A stretch of 21,948 bases of DNA from a virus. The notes under the pieces were generated by a model. That model saw only the letters and a program-made list of their open reading frames with translations. It did not search any database and was not told where the DNA came from. Positions 2,183 to 14,707 of the stretch are shown in pieces (the stretch's first letter is position 1; each line of letters opens with the position of its first letter). The stretch spans positions 1-21,948 of the IMG/VR virus record IMGVR_UViG_3300020178_001083. One strand, 5' to 3'. Both the position numbers and the translations under genes were made by a program.

Positions 2183-2809
2183 TTAGATCTTGATCTGCAG
2201 GTCAAATTTTGCCAGGAATTGCTCTGTTGTGGGGTGATCTATGTTGCCCTTCCACTCTAGATCCTTGGGTTGGAACCAACCTTTGGGTATCACACGGTGA
2301 AACTGCACGTCCTTGTAGTCCTCCAAGCAACGCTTGGTCTGATTCATCCAGTTGCCGTAGAAAGTGGCCTCGTCGCTACGCTTCTTGTAGTTGCGGGTGT
2401 CGCCAAACACGTTGTTGAGTTTGTATCTGTTGTTCTTGCTGTCCTCCCGGTGCCCTTGGTAGTCGAACCCCAATATGTAGATCTCCTTGAATCCGTGATC
2501 GCAGGCCAGTTTCAGTGCTGTTGGTCCACTGCTCCATCCCAGGCTGGGTTTTGACCAGGTCACATGGTCCAGCAGTTTCTGATGTTTCTCGTATTGGTTG
2601 TTGTAGTTGGAGTACACTTTATTATGTACGACATAATCCGTCTCCGCTATCTCTATCATCATCTTGGGGTCTACCGCCACCAACCAGTGTGGTTCGTGTG
2701 TCCTGTACACTGCATTGCAGGCGTACACTGTGCCTTTTTCCTTGAGATCGTTGATATCGATGCCCCTACGGGACTCACCGTTACCCAGTACGAATGCTGT
2801 TTGTGACAT
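2183..2809 (-). CDS. Rossmann-fold protein resembling DUF115/GT42 sialyltransferase-like enzymes
   Basis: This 208-aa protein begins with a Rossmann-like strand-loop FVLGNGESRRGID (6-18). The motif continues with YACNAVYR (29-36) and, later, SSGPTALKLACDHG followed by KEIYILGFDY (93-117). This GNGxS ... CN ... SG...A...G..EIY..G.D pattern is the one seen in the CMP-sialic-acid-binding fold of CstI/CstII-type transferases and in the related MptE/DUF115 proteins. A sugar-nucleotide-binding or transferase role is therefore plausible, but substrate and activity are unknown. It is embedded in the head operon: its ATG overlaps the stop of the 80-aa gene in a TAATG arrangement, which implies coupled translation. 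An accessory enzyme between portal and core genes is not part of the T4 plan. The family call is from remembered motifs, not an alignment. Confidence 0.6.
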   Translation of the reverse strand: MSQTAFVLGNGESRRGIDINDLKEKGTVYACNAVYRTHEPHWLVAVDPKMMIEIAETDYVVHNKVYSNYNNQYEKHQKLLDHVTWSKPSLGWSSGPTALKLACDHGFKEIYILGFDYQGHREDSKNNRYKLNNVFGDTRNYKKRSDEATFYGNWMNQTKRCLEDYKDVQFHRVIPKGWFQPKDLEWKGNIDHPTTEQFLAKFDLQIKI

Positions 2810-8597: not shown

Positions 8598-8674
8598 CCT
8601 GTGGTAGATGAGCAGTCACAATTCGGCTATTTCTAGCCGAACCGACTTGAACCCTGTGGTGAGTTCGCAGTCAC
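8598..8674. repeat. Two-copy imperfect direct repeat, 55-base period
   Basis: Copy 1 at 8598-8619 and copy 2 at 8653-8674 share CCTGTGGT, then a divergent six-base core, then GCAGTCAC (17 of 22 positions identical). The 33-base spacer between them contains the perfect hairpin at 8622-8641. Only two copies are present. Confidence 0.7.
8622..8641. other. Perfect 8-bp hairpin with TTTC loop
   Basis: TTCGGCTA (8622-8629), loop TTTC (8630-8633), TAGCCGAA (8634-8641). No T-run follows, so it is not a classic terminator. It sits exactly between the two direct repeats. Confidence 0.75.
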
Positions 8675-8982
8675 TATACATCGCTACCGGAGTTGGGCGG
8701 TTGTGCTGTACCCATTTGCTCATTCATTACAACGCGAGCCTACCAAACCCTTGCATAATAGTTCTTGGCGGACCTGAGGTCTATCTTTTTCTAGGAGCCT
8801 CATCATTTTTTGCCGTTTGCATCAAAGGATTCACCTGTCGCCTTGTCGGCCGCATTTCCTTGCTCACTGGTTGCGATGCTATGTTTGCCTGTTGGAAATT
8901 TTTAAGAAATTGTAGTTTGCCTATCGCACTTGTTTATACGAGTTTTCTTTATAGGTCAATCTTTTTGGCTTTAAATACCATC

Positions 8983-9405
8983 ATGCATTGGACGTACCAG
9001 GGAAAAGAAATTACCAGCCTACCCGAGGACGTGGTGGGGTTCGTTTACCAGATAACCAACACCACCAACGGCAGGATGTACATTGGCAAGAAACTGGCTA
9101 GGTTCAAAAGATCCAGACCACCATTGAAGGGCAGGAAGAACAAGCGTAGGTACAAGGTGGATTCGGACTGGCAAGACTACTATGGAAGCAGTGACGAACT
9201 CACAGCAGATGTGTTAAGATTAGGCAAGGAAAAATTCACCAGGGAGATACTGTTCTACTGTTATTCCAAAGCAGAACTTTCTTACATAGAAGCACGAGAA
9301 CAGTTCGCACGTAAGGTTCTAGAATCAAATGACTACTACAACGGACACATCCGTGTGCGTGTGCATGGCAAAGGTATTATAGCAAAAACAAATAAAAATG
9401 AATAA
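8983..9405 (+). CDS. GIY-YIG family nuclease
   Basis: A 140-aa protein when started at the ATG at 8983. The longer open frame upstream adds 125 residues unlike any nuclease domain. Motifs: GFVY (19-22) and MYIG (32-35) separated by ITNTTNGR, giving the GIY...YIG hairpin; a basic stretch KGRKNKRRYK (49-58) likely to contact DNA; WQDYYGSS (63-70); FTREIL (85-90); and YIEAREQF (101-108), with Glu103 the candidate metal ligand. NDYYNGHIR at 116-124 matches the usual C-terminal end. GIY-YIG enzymes in T4-like phages include homing (Seg-type) endonucleases, but no DNA-binding extension is present here, so repair or phage-exclusion roles are equally possible. It lies directly downstream of the structured non-coding region. 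Confidence 0.8.
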   Translation: MHWTYQGKEITSLPEDVVGFVYQITNTTNGRMYIGKKLARFKRSRPPLKGRKNKRRYKVDSDWQDYYGSSDELTADVLRLGKEKFTREILFYCYSKAELSYIEAREQFARKVLESNDYYNGHIRVRVHGKGIIAKTNKNE

Positions 9406-9775
9406 AAAAATAATTGATCACACATATCAAAAGTACGGATATAAAATGTTCGACTGTTCGGTGGAAGAGATAAAAAGATATAATAATAAGTGTTACAATA
9501 TAAAAACAACACCAATTCCTTCCGAAATATTTTCCTATGTTAAATTTTTGAATGTGGAAGATGCTATCAAAAGAGTTAACAGCGTCTTTATACCAGCAAA
9601 TCATGGCAATCTACCCAAAACAGAGTGGAGACTTTCTGAGTCAAACAGTCTATTGATCAAAGAGATATGGTTTTATACATACCAAGATCAACAACGTTAT
9701 CAAAGTGCTGTGGAACGAGCATGGGCTCTGGGAGGACATTTGGATATTAGGGTGGAACAATATTATTATGATTAA
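9398..9775 (+). CDS. AT-rich hypothetical protein
   Basis: A 125-aa protein overlapping the end of the nuclease gene by 8 bases (ATG at 9398). It is Tyr/Asn/Lys/Ile-rich in line with the AT-rich DNA, and contains EWRLSESNSLLIKEIWFYTYQDQQRYQSAVERAWALGG as its most structured part (about 76-114). No membrane segment or catalytic motif is visible, and I do not recognise the family. The next gene starts within its last codons (TTATGATTAA), so the two are co-translated. Base composition differs sharply from the flanking structural genes, which suggests recent acquisition. Confidence 0.7.
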   Translation: MNKKIIDHTYQKYGYKMFDCSVEEIKRYNNKCYNIKTTPIPSEIFSYVKFLNVEDAIKRVNSVFIPANHGNLPKTEWRLSESNSLLIKEIWFYTYQDQQRYQSAVERAWALGGHLDIRVEQYYYD

Positions 9776-10820
9776 ACAACAAAATATCATTTTCGATAAT
9801 GATCTAAGTTTTAAAACTGAGCAAGGAGGTATTGTTGAAAACGATATCGAAAGACTGAATCTGTTCTTTCATGATAACTGTGATACTAATTCCATATGCT
9901 TAATTGGAAACAAGTTAGAGTGGAAACCAAAAATATGGACGCAGTTTGAACAAGAAAAAATAAGAAAATTAAAAGAAGTTAATATAATATGTCTTATGGG
10001 AGATCTTACTGATTTTTTTGTTTATTTTCAAAAACAATTTAGTAGTGTTAAAGTTAGTTATTATTCTTTTCATTTAGGTTTACAAATAAACTTCATTAAA
10101 GATACATTAACAAGGAAAAAAATTACATACAATCAATATACAAGAAAACAAGGTGTATATACTTCCACTGGAACTATGAGATTAAACCGATATATCTTAA
10201 TTAAAGAAGGCATAGACAAAGGTTATAATTTTTATTATCCAAAAATTCTGTACAACGTCAGTAAAGATTTTGAATATCAGATAAGTCGGTGTCTGGGCTT
10301 GTCTACGGAAAAGCCCAAAGAAATCAATGAACGACGTTTATTTCGAAACGATCTAACACCAGATGAACACAATGCAAAACAGATAGAAATGTTATCCAGC
10401 TCTTACATAAATGTTGTAGCAACATTTCCAAACACAGATTGGTTAATCGACAAAGATGACGAGAAATATTTTGATACAGTTTTGTCTAAAACAATACCTT
10501 TTATGCTGTGTGAGAAAGACAGCAACAAGTCGGGACTGAAACTTTTGGGTTTTTTACCATATGAAGGTTTTGAGTTGCAAAACGACAGCAATGATAATCC
10601 TGTGTTGAGGTGGAAGCAACTACTTTCTGACAACGAATATATTTTTAAAGATTTGGAAAAAATAAAGGAATTGCACGATAAAAATCAACGAGTGATAGAA
10701 CACAATTTTGATAGATTGGTCAACACCGACTGGGAAGCGGAAAGATTGGCACAATATAATAGACTCCCGACATTTATCAAAGACCAGTTAGATACTAATA
10801 TTTTTTCTTTTATGAAATAA
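9768..10820 (+). CDS. Putative glycosyltransferase-like protein (marine phage type)
   Basis: A 350-aa protein if started at the ATG at 9768, which overlaps the previous stop; an in-frame ATG at 9705 would add 21 residues inside the upstream gene and is less likely. The GTMRLNRYILIKEGIDKGY segment (135-153) and SSYINVVATFP ... YFDTVLSKTIPFMLCEKD...LKLLGFLPYEGF (211-268) follow the layout of a family I recall from marine phages. In that family the C-terminal half resembles the donor-binding half of GT-B/fucosyltransferase-like enzymes (S/T-E-K-T-x-x-P-I-x-x-x-x-P-F pattern, here degenerate, with the Glu-Lys positions not kept). Activity is therefore doubtful and the call tentative. The DNA is very AT-rich (13 G/C in the 60 bases from 9961). 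It ends at a bidirectional terminator. Confidence 0.5.
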   Translation: MIKQQNIIFDNDLSFKTEQGGIVENDIERLNLFFHDNCDTNSICLIGNKLEWKPKIWTQFEQEKIRKLKEVNIICLMGDLTDFFVYFQKQFSSVKVSYYSFHLGLQINFIKDTLTRKKITYNQYTRKQGVYTSTGTMRLNRYILIKEGIDKGYNFYYPKILYNVSKDFEYQISRCLGLSTEKPKEINERRLFRNDLTPDEHNAKQIEMLSSSYINVVATFPNTDWLIDKDDEKYFDTVLSKTIPFMLCEKDSNKSGLKLLGFLPYEGFELQNDSNDNPVLRWKQLLSDNEYIFKDLEKIKELHDKNQRVIEHNFDRLVNTDWEAERLAQYNRLPTFIKDQLDTNIFSFMK

Positions 10821-10879: not shown

Positions 10880-11071
10880 TTAGGCGGCTTTTGCCGCGTT
10901 CTTAACTTCCTGAATTTCTTTTCTTCTTGTTTTGATCAGTTTAGATAAGTTTGCTAGGGCCTTTCTGGCTCTAGTCGCAGATGCTTTCACACCCTTATCA
11001 ACGAACTTCCCATTCTCTTCAGAGTAAGTTTGTATCTCTGTCATTATAGCGTCGTGTGTTTCATTTGACAT
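10880..11071 (-). CDS. Histone H1-like (Hc1-type) small basic protein
   Basis: A 63-aa protein with the ATG at 11071, chosen because a strong AAGGAAGGA Shine-Dalgarno lies 8 bases upstream; the longer frame from 11107 has none. The central part GVKASATRARKALANLSKLIKTRRKEIQEVKN (28-58) matches the helical repeat of bacterial histone H1-like Hc1 proteins, where a GNKAAGTRARKAL-type segment is followed by a basic helix. Such proteins bind DNA non-specifically and compact it. In a phage it could package or protect DNA or alter the host nucleoid; which is not shown. It has its own sigma70-like promoter and a strong terminator, so it is probably a single-gene early transcript. Confidence 0.75.
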   Translation of the reverse strand: MSNETHDAIMTEIQTYSEENGKFVDKGVKASATRARKALANLSKLIKTRRKEIQEVKNAAKAA

Positions 11072-11124
11072 ATTAATTGTCCTTCCTTTATTGTCGTACG
11101 ATAACATTAATTAACGTCATTGTA

Positions 11125-11171: not shown

Positions 11172-11612
11172 TTACCAAATTATTTTATTACCAATTGAAA
11201 GCAAGTAACTGATTGAATCGTTTTCCCATATGTTAAACAGCATGTAGGAATTTTTCAACAGTCTGTTACTAACTTTGTTTTGGTAATCTTTTACATAGTC
11301 AAATGACACAGGCAAATTGTTTTTATTGTGAGCAATTTTGAAAACTTTGTGCATGTTGTCTGCGTTTATCTCAACCCCGTCTATGATTATTTTGGAAACA
11401 TGGCATTCTGTGGCACCTGTGTTGGTTGTATCTAAAAGGAACTGATCGGGGGCTTCAACCTCAATTGATATCTTTTGCAGATTATAGTCAGCGTGAGACT
11501 CTACAAATGGTTGTAGTCCCGATTTACAAAACACCTTTGGATTGGCTTTTTTCCATGGTCCGGAGTGCTGTAAGTACACTTCTACCAGAATTTGTCTACG
11601 TGGAAACCACAT
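11172..11612 (-). CDS. Hypothetical beta-rich protein after the radical SAM gene
   Basis: A 146-aa frame whose ATG at 11612 overlaps the last 31 bases of the radical SAM gene. A GTG at 11579 in the same frame (VYLQHSGPW...) is an alternative start that would avoid the overlap. The core alternates short hydrophobic strands (ISIEVEAPDQFLLD, VSKIIIDGVEIN, VFKIAHN, VSFDYV; about 48-105) with turns, which looks like a beta-sandwich. The C-terminal YMLFNIWENDSISYLLSIGN is more mixed. No catalytic motif, signal or membrane segment is evident. Coupling to the radical SAM gene suggests a partner or substrate-binding role, but this is inference. AT-rich like the rest of the island. Confidence 0.6.
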   Translation of the reverse strand: MWFPRRQILVEVYLQHSGPWKKANPKVFCKSGLQPFVESHADYNLQKISIEVEAPDQFLLDTTNTGATECHVSKIIIDGVEINADNMHKVFKIAHNKNNLPVSFDYVKDYQNKVSNRLLKNSYMLFNIWENDSISYLLSIGNKIIW

Positions 11613-12922
11613 TGTTTTGCCTTTTCATAAAGTTTGTTGGCGTGGACTTCACGAGCCTCACGACCATTATTGAATTTTTCCAAGTCAACTTCACGTGAAA
11701 GTTTTGTTCCATCTAGTATGCCCAACTGAGTCATCTGTACACGTGTTATAACAGACCCTGCGTAATCCTTGTGTGCCTCGAACCACCTTAGAGCATCCGC
11801 ATGGTCCTCCTCCGTTTCGGTGTGATAAGCGGCTATCATAAGCAGATCAATCACTACGCCGTGTGATTTACACTGTTCAAGATGATCATCGAGATCCTTG
11901 TTTGTGAAATTTTTGCCTAATTTTATCCTTGCCTCAGAACTCAAACTTTCCACACCACATACTAATCTTCCATTACTGTCTTTTATATCATTGAAAAGAG
12001 AATCTGTGTGCCTTCCTTTTTTCCTGATTATGAAATTTCCATTCCAGTGTATCTGTTTGTTGGGCATCTTGTTTTTGTTGTACTGTGCTATTATTTCAAC
12101 AAGTTTAGTGAATTCTACAAGATTACCGTTTGAGATACTGCTGGCAAAATCAAAACGATATATGTTGTATTTTTTTATAAGTTCTTGCATCTGTGAGAAA
12201 ACGTTCTGTGCGGACAGGTACTGGAATTTCTTCCAAAATTCTATTACGTCGCAGAATTCACATTTCTGCACACATCCTCTGCTGTCAACAATAGGAATTC
12301 TTTTGTGTTCGTAGTTAAAAAAATCATAGTAGTCATAATTCGGTGTTACAATGGAATGGAATTCAGCATCTTGCTGTGCAGTAATATTAGTGTTAGGTTG
12401 TTTTACACCTTCCTCGAAATAGGCGATTAGATTACTATTGACATCGCCAACTATAAAGTGATCTATTAAACCTGCAGACCTAAGGCTTTCAGGGAAACTA
12501 ATGTTTTTCTTTGTTGACAGCGTGTAGAGTCCAGGTCCGCCAATTATTATTTTGACTTCGGGTGCGACCTTCTTCAACAAGTTGCAGAGCCATACAGTAA
12601 ACACTTGGCTGTCATTCGTGAAAAGGCTAAGACCTATGTGTGTTGGTTTGTGTTCCAACATTTTCTTTGCATAATGGTACAACATTTCTGACAGTGACCT
12701 GTATATTCTTGGATCAATTTTTTGATGATAAAAGAAATCCAGATAAAGTTTCCGATCTGGATCATTTTTAATTTTGTTATAGATTTCTATGTTTAGATCA
12801 AGGCCAATGCAATCAACGCCGTGATTGTTGAGCAGAGCACTGAGGTATGCTGGAGAACTGATCGGGGTGTTCCAGTCAATAAAAGGTACGGTGGTAACAA
12901 CTACTTTTGAGGGCAATGGCAT
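11582..12922 (-). CDS. Radical SAM protein with B12-binding-like N-terminal domain
   Basis: A 446-aa protein. The cysteine motif SRGCVQKCEFCDV (214-226) carries C217-x3-C221-x2-C224, the ligands of the 4Fe-4S cluster that cleaves S-adenosylmethionine. The part before it (6-175) has the layout of the cobalamin-binding Rossmann domain found in BchE-type enzymes, with the strands VVVTTVP, GLSLFTND and KIIIGGPG. The B12-coordinating DxHxxG motif is missing, so cobalamin binding is doubtful. The TIM-barrel half continues to about 400 (IHWNGNF at 291-297, CGVESLS near 320). Substrate is unknown; methyl transfer or C-C/C-S bond chemistry on DNA, RNA or glycans are all possible. It starts nine bases after gp46, so it joins the gp47-gp46 operon by read-through but is AT-richer. 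Confidence 0.85.
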   Translation of the reverse strand: MPLPSKVVVTTVPFIDWNTPISSPAYLSALLNNHGVDCIGLDLNIEIYNKIKNDPDRKLYLDFFYHQKIDPRIYRSLSEMLYHYAKKMLEHKPTHIGLSLFTNDSQVFTVWLCNLLKKVAPEVKIIIGGPGLYTLSTKKNISFPESLRSAGLIDHFIVGDVNSNLIAYFEEGVKQPNTNITAQQDAEFHSIVTPNYDYYDFFNYEHKRIPIVDSRGCVQKCEFCDVIEFWKKFQYLSAQNVFSQMQELIKKYNIYRFDFASSISNGNLVEFTKLVEIIAQYNKNKMPNKQIHWNGNFIIRKKGRHTDSLFNDIKDSNGRLVCGVESLSSEARIKLGKNFTNKDLDDHLEQCKSHGVVIDLLMIAAYHTETEEDHADALRWFEAHKDYAGSVITRVQMTQLGILDGTKLSREVDLEKFNNGREAREVHANKLYEKAKQCGFHVDKFW

Positions 12923-12931
12923 AACTTATAA

Positions 12932-14707
12932 TTATACGATGATATCGACGTCGTTTGCATAATTTGTAAAGCCATTTTCTTTGACAACTTTCAGTACGCT
13001 GTTCACCCTGCTTACCAGTTCGTCTTTGTGTGATATCAGGAATATGTTCTTTTTTTGCGTCCTGCTCATGTCTTTCAGCACTGCCATGGAACTTTCAACA
13101 CCGGATATGTCCATACCTGCGTCCACAAGTTCATCAATGAACAGCAAGTTGATCTGTTGATAAAGGCTCTCCCACACATCTCTGAACGCCCAACTCAGAC
13201 TCAGAATCAATCTGTTTCTCTCACCTCTACTTAGATTATCAAAATCTAGTTCTCTGCCAAGTTCTTCGATACGCACAGTTAGATCTGATTGGAAAGTCAC
13301 TGTGTGTGGTAGTTTGACCTTGCCCAGGAAGTATGCCAGTCTCTGATTCAGGTACGTCAAGTTCTGTTCTATGATCCTGGTCCTTATGAATGAATCTTTC
13401 GCGGTCAACAGTTTGTACAGGAACTCCTGGTGCCTGTGTAGGTCTTCTAGTTCGTTTGCCTTCTCATAATCGATATCTTGTATCGCGGATTTGGTCATCT
13501 CCGCTATCTGTTCTGCGTAGGTATCTTCTTTCTTCTCTGTCTGTTCCAACTGCCTCTTAAGATCCTGTAGAGAACCTTTGTGGTTGTACGCCTCGTCTAT
13601 GGTATCGTAGTATGTTTCGGGCACCTGTCCGAGATCTCCCACCTCGTCTATGCCTTCCTGTATTTTCGCTAGGGCTGACTTCAGTTTCGTCACGTAGTCT
13701 GTGGATTCTGTAAGTTGTACTTTCAGTTTGTCAACGAGATGTGTGTGCTTGTCGTCGTGCAGTTCCTGTTCGCAGGTTGGACATTTCTGTTGTTCAGCGT
13801 ATTCTAGATCTGTGTTGGTCTTGGAAACAGTGCTTTCAGCCTTGGTTAACGAATCCTCGTGATACGCTTTCTCTTTCTCGAGGCTCCTCAGCATGGTCTG
13901 TAGTTCATTCCTCTTCTGCAGTTTCTTGTGCTTCTCTATCTCGATCTCACTGTCCACTTTCTCCAGTTCCGCGATCGCTTCCTTGAAACTCTTTATGTCA
14001 TCGTCTTTCTGGCTTGCCCAGGCGTTTGACCTTATTTTCAAACTTTCTATGGACTCCTGTATCTTTTCGTTGGAGGCAACTTTAGCGTCTATACGCATCT
14101 TCTCTTCAGTCAGCATCTGTTTTGTCGCCTTCTGCTTTTCCTTCAATAGGTCCGCTTTCTGCGATAGTAGTGTTATACCCAACAGTTGTTCTATTATTTC
14201 CCTCTGCTCTGCCTGTTTGGTTGACAGGAAAGGTTGTGTGTATGTGTTCAACGCGATGATGTTCTTGAACATGGAGTGGGTCATGCCCATCAGTTTGTTG
14301 ATCTCCACCTGTGTCTCCCTGTTCTCCCCTTGTGCTTCGTTGTTGTCCGTGTTCTGTTCTATGTCGTTGGCGTAGAATCTGAATATCTGTGGCTTACGTC
14401 CTCGCTCGATTGTGTATGTGACTCCGTTCTTTATGAACTTGACGCTTACCAACATACCCTTCTCGTTGGTCTTGTTGACAAGATTGTCTCTCCTGATGTT
14501 TGTGAGTGCTTCACCAAAGAACACGTAACTCAATGCATTGATAATTGTGGTCTTACCCGTACCGTTCCTGGCACCTGCGTCATCCCCACCTAGGTCCATG
14601 TTCTCACCGATAACAAGAACCAGGCTCTTGTTTGAGAAGTCAATGGCCTGGGCCTGGTTGCCCACACTCATGAAGTTCTTTACCGTGAGTTCTTTAATCG
14701 TCAGCAA
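12932..14707 (-). CDS. gp46: Recombination endonuclease subunit gp46 (Rad50/SbcC-like ATPase), TTG start
   Basis: A 591-aa SMC-like ATPase. Walker A GARNGTGKTT is at 45-54; two long coiled-coil arms (about 175-310 and 320-450) meet at a CPTC zinc hook (310-313). The signature LSRGERN lies at 492-498, Walker B LLFIDE at 521-526 and an H-loop ISHKDE at 558-563. With gp47 it resects broken DNA ends for recombination-dependent replication and host DNA breakdown. The start codon is TTG (14707), supported by GAGGA six bases upstream and by the need for the first beta strand (LTIKELTVKNFMSVG aligns with the T4 start). The first ATG would remove 12 residues of it. It overlaps the preceding 55-aa gene by 14 bases. 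Confidence 0.96.
   Translation of the reverse strand: MLTIKELTVKNFMSVGNQAQAIDFSNKSLVLVIGENMDLGGDDAGARNGTGKTTIINALSYVFFGEALTNIRRDNLVNKTNEKGMLVSVKFIKNGVTYTIERGRKPQIFRFYANDIEQNTDNNEAQGENRETQVEINKLMGMTHSMFKNIIALNTYTQPFLSTKQAEQREIIEQLLGITLLSQKADLLKEKQKATKQMLTEEKMRIDAKVASNEKIQESIESLKIRSNAWASQKDDDIKSFKEAIAELEKVDSEIEIEKHKKLQKRNELQTMLRSLEKEKAYHEDSLTKAESTVSKTNTDLEYAEQQKCPTCEQELHDDKHTHLVDKLKVQLTESTDYVTKLKSALAKIQEGIDEVGDLGQVPETYYDTIDEAYNHKGSLQDLKRQLEQTEKKEDTYAEQIAEMTKSAIQDIDYEKANELEDLHRHQEFLYKLLTAKDSFIRTRIIEQNLTYLNQRLAYFLGKVKLPHTVTFQSDLTVRIEELGRELDFDNLSRGERNRLILSLSWAFRDVWESLYQQINLLFIDELVDAGMDISGVESSMAVLKDMSRTQKKNIFLISHKDELVSRVNSVLKVVKENGFTNYANDVDIIV

Follow-up and report, generated by a model that had tools for sequence, protein, structure and literature searches.

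A mobile two-component module of a radical SAM enzyme and a beta-sandwich partner in uncultured phages, with a possible role in glycan modification

The window analyzed here, a stretch of 21,948 nucleotides (21.9 kb) of viral DNA from IMG/VR record IMGVR_UViG_3300020178_001083, encodes T4-type gp46, gp47, and gp55 together with a portal protein, and is a piece of a T4-superfamily phage genome. The best-ranked cultured matches of the portal, about 50% identical, come from the large phages Phosso, Atu_ph07, and PA5oct. On the minus strand lie a radical SAM enzyme of 446 residues (11582..12922; ATG start, TAG stop) and a small beta-sandwich protein of 146 residues (11172..11612), hereafter the partner. 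The two reading frames overlap by 31 nucleotides (11582..11612, minus strand), with the start codon of the partner placed inside the last codons of the enzyme gene (..CGFHVDKFW, then stop). Directly upstream on the same strand stand gp46 (12932..14707; phrog_77, E 6.8e-100), gp47, and gp55 (phrog_12791), of which gp46 serves here as context outside the module, its phylogeny differing from that of the pair. These frames, their overlap, and their position behind gp46 agree with the first-pass annotation of this DNA. Just downstream of the pair, an Hc1 histone H1-like protein of 75 residues is encoded (10880-11107, minus strand; PF07432, E 1.7e-11).

The larger protein belongs to the radical SAM superfamily by virtue of its CX3CX2C motif and of a match to Pfam Radical_SAM (PF04055) above the curated cut-off (39.1 vs 29.5 bits). 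The motif, which marks the [4Fe-4S] cluster and had been picked out earlier, reads C217-V-Q-K-C221-E-F-C224 (12251..12274, minus strand), and all three cysteines are kept in 65 of 65 relatives. It is preceded by a B12-binding-like Rossmann domain spanning approximately residues 5-170 (12413..12910, minus strand), which is delineated by a sub-threshold match to PF02310 (residues 87-131; 22.8 bits, below the cut-off of 32.1), by conservation over the 65 relatives, including DLN (42-44) and GGxG (128-131), and by a structure model. An AlphaFold2 model of the window enzyme, built from the 65-sequence alignment, reaches a pLDDT of 91 and is matched by Foldseek to TsrM, MgmA, MiaB, OxsB, and AprD4; the matches to TsrM and OxsB place it in the fold of the class B methylases, with an N-domain of the B12-binding type. 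No curated NCBIfam equivalog is reached; the best, TIGR04072, scores 42 bits where 360 would be required.

The DxHxxG motif is absent from the sequence of this N-domain in the window enzyme, as the first-pass annotation had observed, and its stress on the missing histidine motif was misplaced. TsrM and other class B cobalamin radical SAM enzymes bind cobalamin although they lack DxHxxG, and the motif is therefore not diagnostic; this general knowledge led to rejection of the idea that an enzyme without it is of a non-B12 kind. A different assignment is raised by a weak match of the window enzyme (11582-12922) to the PADLOC defence candidate PDC-M51A (E 4e-6; 3.8e-11 for the enzyme of relative L071) and by a neighboring N-twitch radical SAM enzyme with a score of E 5e-11 on viperin models. 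Such results would fit a system, viperin-like or of the PADLOC candidate class, that makes a small molecule and serves in anti-defence, inter-phage exclusion, or nucleotide signaling; scores of this size, however, are expected between radical SAM subfamilies, and the enzyme has no paired nucleotide kinase or effector. We regard a system of this kind as improbable.

The partner has no family in PHROGs, Pfam, or NCBIfam. The median identity among partner sequences is only about 20%, and homology was therefore tested separately. A profile HMM built without the whole clade of the window protein recovers it at E 2.7e-7 in a search of 117 frames of the window, and this match, together with the adjacent radical SAM gene, assigns it to the partner family. 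The window-type and loop-type groups of partners are joined by profile-profile comparison with a probability of 99.7% (E 1.4e-25). Modeled on the protein of relative L071 with a 58-sequence alignment, the family adopts a beta-sandwich with a mean AlphaFold2 pLDDT of 95.8, which bears out the earlier description of a small beta-rich gene product. The top PDB folds for this model are the CBM60 modules 2xhh (E 4.8e-4) and 2xfd (E 1.2e-3), both with a probability of 1.00 and with moderate TM-scores of 0.61 and 0.67 by target; C2 domains come next, at E 6e-3 and weaker, and the best BFVD matches are exclusively unnamed proteins of uncultured Caudovirales (TM approximately 0.8). The match to the CBM60 beta-sandwich fold thus comes from the model of a relative rather than from the window protein.

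A loop of the form [GN]Kx(n)DT..D..GxI..DK is kept in 29 of the 58 partners at the position where CBM60 carries its ND..GRD calcium loop, the Asp residues of which coordinate calcium. Several lineages have lost the loop, the window's among them: the calcium-type Asp pair present at a comparable place in those 29 relatives is missing from the window partner. Pfam gives no match of the partner to CBM60 (PF16841), hhalign against a two-sequence CBM60 profile, a comparison of low power, returns a probability of 0.3, and a search of four phage records yielded none either. Membership of the partner in CBM60 by sequence was accordingly rejected on these results, and since sequence comparison fails to place it there, a CBM60-like fold is claimed and not family membership.

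Scans of IMG/VR yielded 5, 15, 59, and 80 loci, which were merged into 72 loci with non-redundant enzymes; these relatives all stem from metagenomes, as contigs that in several cases are fragments. The first-pass annotation had named co-occurrence elsewhere, in advance, as the observation on which the coupling of the two genes would stand or fall, and a partner-family gene lies directly adjacent to the enzyme in 63 of the 72 loci. Among the closest enzyme relatives (HMM score above 480 bits) it follows immediately downstream in 59 of 61. The start-to-stop spacing of the pair ranges from -70 to +9 nucleotides, and in one clade (L051, L053, and L061) the gene order is reversed, with the partner upstream of the enzyme. 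The 31-nucleotide overlap with its embedded partner ATG is common to the window's own clade, termed the primase-helicase clade, and because members of the clade in other phages have kept both overlap and start codon, the overlap is not a product of chance. The same holds for the gene pair itself, as comparison of the window with its nearest relative shows purifying selection on both members (dN/dS 0.077/1.02 for the enzyme and 0.167/0.98 for the partner).

The two proteins also occur as one. A 703-aa reading frame on a 192-kb phage contig comprises the enzyme in residues 2-479 and a partner domain in residues 532-658. A wider scan of IMG/VR returned 572 relatives, and examination of the best 80 of the 572 left 55 that are non-redundant: the partner is downstream in 28, upstream in 1, fused in 7, and not detected in 19, proportions that are biased because the query alignment was led by a fused protein. 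On the radical SAM tree the fused state accounts for at least three changes; fusion of enzyme and partner occurs in at least 7 non-redundant phages and has two to three origins. Where partner-like frames were sought beside partnerless relatives, other genes were found instead. Judged by eye, the partner's place is taken in L213 and L238 by a protein resembling a 2OG-oxygenase, in L190 by an N_Twi-looking, twitch-type radical SAM enzyme, and in L217 by an acetyltransferase-looking protein.

Searched against 50,697 cultured-phage records, the window enzyme finds no match at E 0.01 and the partner nothing beyond noise at E of about 1, while searches of cultured phages with other family members return weak radical SAM matches or nothing. 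A scan of cellular genomes adds just two remote relatives besides L065, which comes from a 'Candidatus Pelagibacter' metagenome-assembled genome. Being phage DNA with 99.9% identity to phage contig L002, L065 does not represent a host copy; either a phage was binned together with its possible host, or the contig is a contaminant. The pair is found in many uncultured phages of marine and fresh waters, and looks like an undescribed enzyme system.

How tightly the two genes are bound to each other, and how loosely to their surroundings, can be read from their phylogenies. In a mirror-tree comparison, enzyme and partner distances correlate at r=0.75, a value attained in 0 of 5000 permutations (best 0.16). 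In loci carrying gp46, the correlation is 0.85 between enzyme and partner and 0.31 between enzyme and gp46, and across gp46, gp47, and gp41 the enzyme reaches only r 0.13-0.31. The genomic sites are manifold: the gap between primase and helicase, the position after gp46, the gap between gp47 and gp46, the vicinity of neck genes, and that of GT-like or 2OG-like genes, with 22 changes of context along the tree. In L128 (5967-10525), the pair has gone in precisely between the genes for the two subunits of one nuclease, gp47 and gp46. The window pair is nested in the primase-helicase clade yet sits after gp46, and its neighbors therefore say little about its function. Given a co-evolution stronger than that of enzyme and gp46, and given the many sites, the pair is one mobile two-component module, co-evolving and sometimes fused, and not a DNA-metabolism gene. 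That the two are mere neighbors acting independently within a mobile segment, as L049 and L077, two core relatives with no detectable partner, might suggest, is very hard to reconcile with a partner that is nearly always adjacent, occurs in either gene order, has been fused repeatedly, and co-evolves strongly with the enzyme, and we give it almost no weight.

The same data bear on what had been made of the gp46 neighborhood. The earlier suggestion of a coupled, uncharacterized, and probably modifying system is upheld by co-occurrence, whereas the tie to DNA metabolism that it implied does not survive the phylogeny and the range of sites; a DNA-metabolism role for the pair was rejected on mirror-tree and context evidence. 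Modification of DNA or RNA nucleosides alongside the adjoining replication genes would draw on the approximately 12 loci in which the pair adjoins primase or helicase, the 16 in which it adjoins gp46 or gp47, and a fold shared with MiaB and RimO. It is nonetheless an unpromising reading, considering that the phylogeny of the pair is unlike that of gp46, gp47, and gp41, that neck and other sites are also occupied, that both proteins have a median pI of about 5.9, unlike typical nucleic-acid binders, and that no base-modification partners were seen.

Other genes of the window recur near the pair in relatives. A 371-aa gene on the plus strand (9705..10820) is a candidate companion in the cassette; it has no match in Pfam or NCBIfam and only sub-significant matches in PHROGs, and its homologue in L249 (E 2e-7) adjoins the pair and overlaps its start. 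A Sialyltransferase/MptE-like protein (2183-2809, minus strand; weak in Pfam, phrog_30607 at E 5.5e-26) has homologues in L244, L246, and L248, where they come immediately after the pair. A SegE-type GIY-YIG endonuclease (8608-9405, plus strand; PF19835, E 1.3e-35), whose family is present in 23 of the 72 loci, could be a helper in cassette movement.

Near the pair in relatives lie SDR genes (in 10 of the 72 loci) and, in some, GT8, PLP enzymes, a second radical SAM enzyme, or a fusion of a cytidylyltransferase with a mannose-6-P-isomerase-type cupin; some of these functions were judged by eye, and several glycosyltransferase-like neighbors have no significant Pfam match. In L079, L080, L081, L083, and L114, the pair is followed by arrays of as many as five twitch-type radical SAM enzymes in tandem, and N_Twi_rSAM scores above its cut-off in the three enzymes tested from the L114 array. 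The partner family itself extends further. A member directly follows an above-cut-off N_Twi_rSAM enzyme in L160 (189-1845) and L161 (219-1941), another precedes a SPASM-type radical SAM enzyme in L153 (1450-2864), and in L071 (9483-11807) a second partner-like gene stands between two related PLP-enzyme-like genes, one of which matches Aminotran_1_2. As partner genes overlap or abut N_Twi_rSAM and SPASM-type enzymes, the partner is not restricted to enzymes of the B12 fold.

Our preferred reading, which we hold at roughly even odds (about 0.5), is that of a two-component phage enzyme that modifies glycans or sugars, moves as a cassette, and has its substrate presented by the partner. Fold relatives that act on aminosugars, the resemblance of the partner to a carbohydrate-binding module, and sugar-type neighbors in some relatives speak for a sugar or glycan as what is modified. 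The radical SAM subunit would generate a 5'-deoxyadenosyl radical through its CX3CX2C cluster. If the B12-type N-domain holds cobalamin, the predicted outcome is C-methylation in the manner of TsrM; if cobalamin has been lost from it, dehydration, deoxygenation, or epimerization in the manner of AprD4 is predicted. The beta-sandwich subunit would bind the enzyme in a physical complex and, as an adaptor, present the substrate, for which a sugar or surface-glycan intermediate is the likeliest candidate. What the phage would probably gain is an altered surface polysaccharide of the infected cell, or an altered phage-made glycan, during infection. Against this reading count the ease with which beta-sandwich fold matches are shared, the absent sequence link between partner and CBM60, the half of the partner family, window protein included, that is devoid of the Asp loop, the presence of glycan genes near some loci only, the two close relatives without a detectable partner, and some distant ones with substitute genes.

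Alternatively, the radical SAM enzyme may have the beta-sandwich protein itself as its substrate, which would then be a small protein of the virion or a secreted one, much as RiPP maturases act on their precursors. A single substrate gene coupled to a single enzyme is the typical RiPP-like arrangement, lone partner-like genes follow a small 122-aa gene in the jumbo phages L153, L155, and L157, and the partner diverges much faster than the enzyme (median identity of 20% vs 43%). Yet no conserved residue is fit for modification, P51 and G122 alone being nearly invariant across 58 partners; the model predicts a confident, rigid fold devoid of a flexible core or leader; and fusion to the enzyme suits an adaptor better. 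We therefore find this alternative unlikely. Extending the adaptor role, the beta-sandwich may be a general substrate-presenting subunit of phage radical SAM enzymes (B12-fold, N-twitch, and SPASM), found also beside PLP enzymes, and may form with them phage-borne glycan-tailoring pathways not known from cultured phages, a proposal that we put forward tentatively and at somewhat less than an even chance.

Aquatic phages are frequently observed to carry radical SAM genes, and a dedicated partner of about 140 residues gives them a concrete handle: an expressible two-protein enzyme, a partner for ligand screening, and a signature for finding hundreds more such systems. Should the substrate be a glycan, the module would point to phage remodeling of host surfaces by radical chemistry.

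Among known systems, the calcium-dependent modules CBM60 and CBM36 (2xfd, 2xhh) have a strand order similar to that of the partner, whose variable loop occupies the position of their calcium site; they are associated with xylanases, whereas the phage partner lies beside or is fused to a radical SAM enzyme. Were it a general companion of radical SAM enzymes, the partner could be likened in role to RiPP recognition elements. The N_Twi_rSAM (NF033640) arrays of aquatic phages often adjoin the pair in relatives, and two N_Twi enzymes have a downstream beta-sandwich gene of their own; the window enzyme differs from them in its B12-type domain and in lacking a twitch/SPASM domain. Radical SAM cassettes have also been described in the host-recognition cluster of pelagimyophages (PMC7029224).

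Another related system is the radical SAM 1,2-diol dehydratase AprD4 (6fd2), equal to the phage enzyme in length and domain order. It has the best TM among the listed matches (0.65/0.66), with TsrM and MiaB similar, and its profile match is not significant (E 0.85). AprD4 is cobalamin-independent. A dedicated SDR partner serving as NADPH reductase, as in the AprD4 type, was not seen in the window, and SDR genes occur near only 10 of the 72 relatives. AprD4 acts on paromamine with its reductase partner AprD3, and aminosugars are methylated by the class B enzymes GenD1 and GenK, which work alongside dehydrogenases and PLP aminotransferases (PMC5461906). TsrM (6wte), OxsB (5ul4), and MgmA (9ccb) share with the phage enzyme a B12-type Rossmann N-domain joined to a radical SAM barrel; MgmA is also its best PDB sequence match, and class B methylases give the best Foldseek E-values (8e-15 for TsrM, which likewise lacks DxHxxG). 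From these methylases the phage enzyme is set apart by scores below the equivalog cut-offs and by its dedicated beta-sandwich protein, carried as a separate partner or as a C-terminal fusion.
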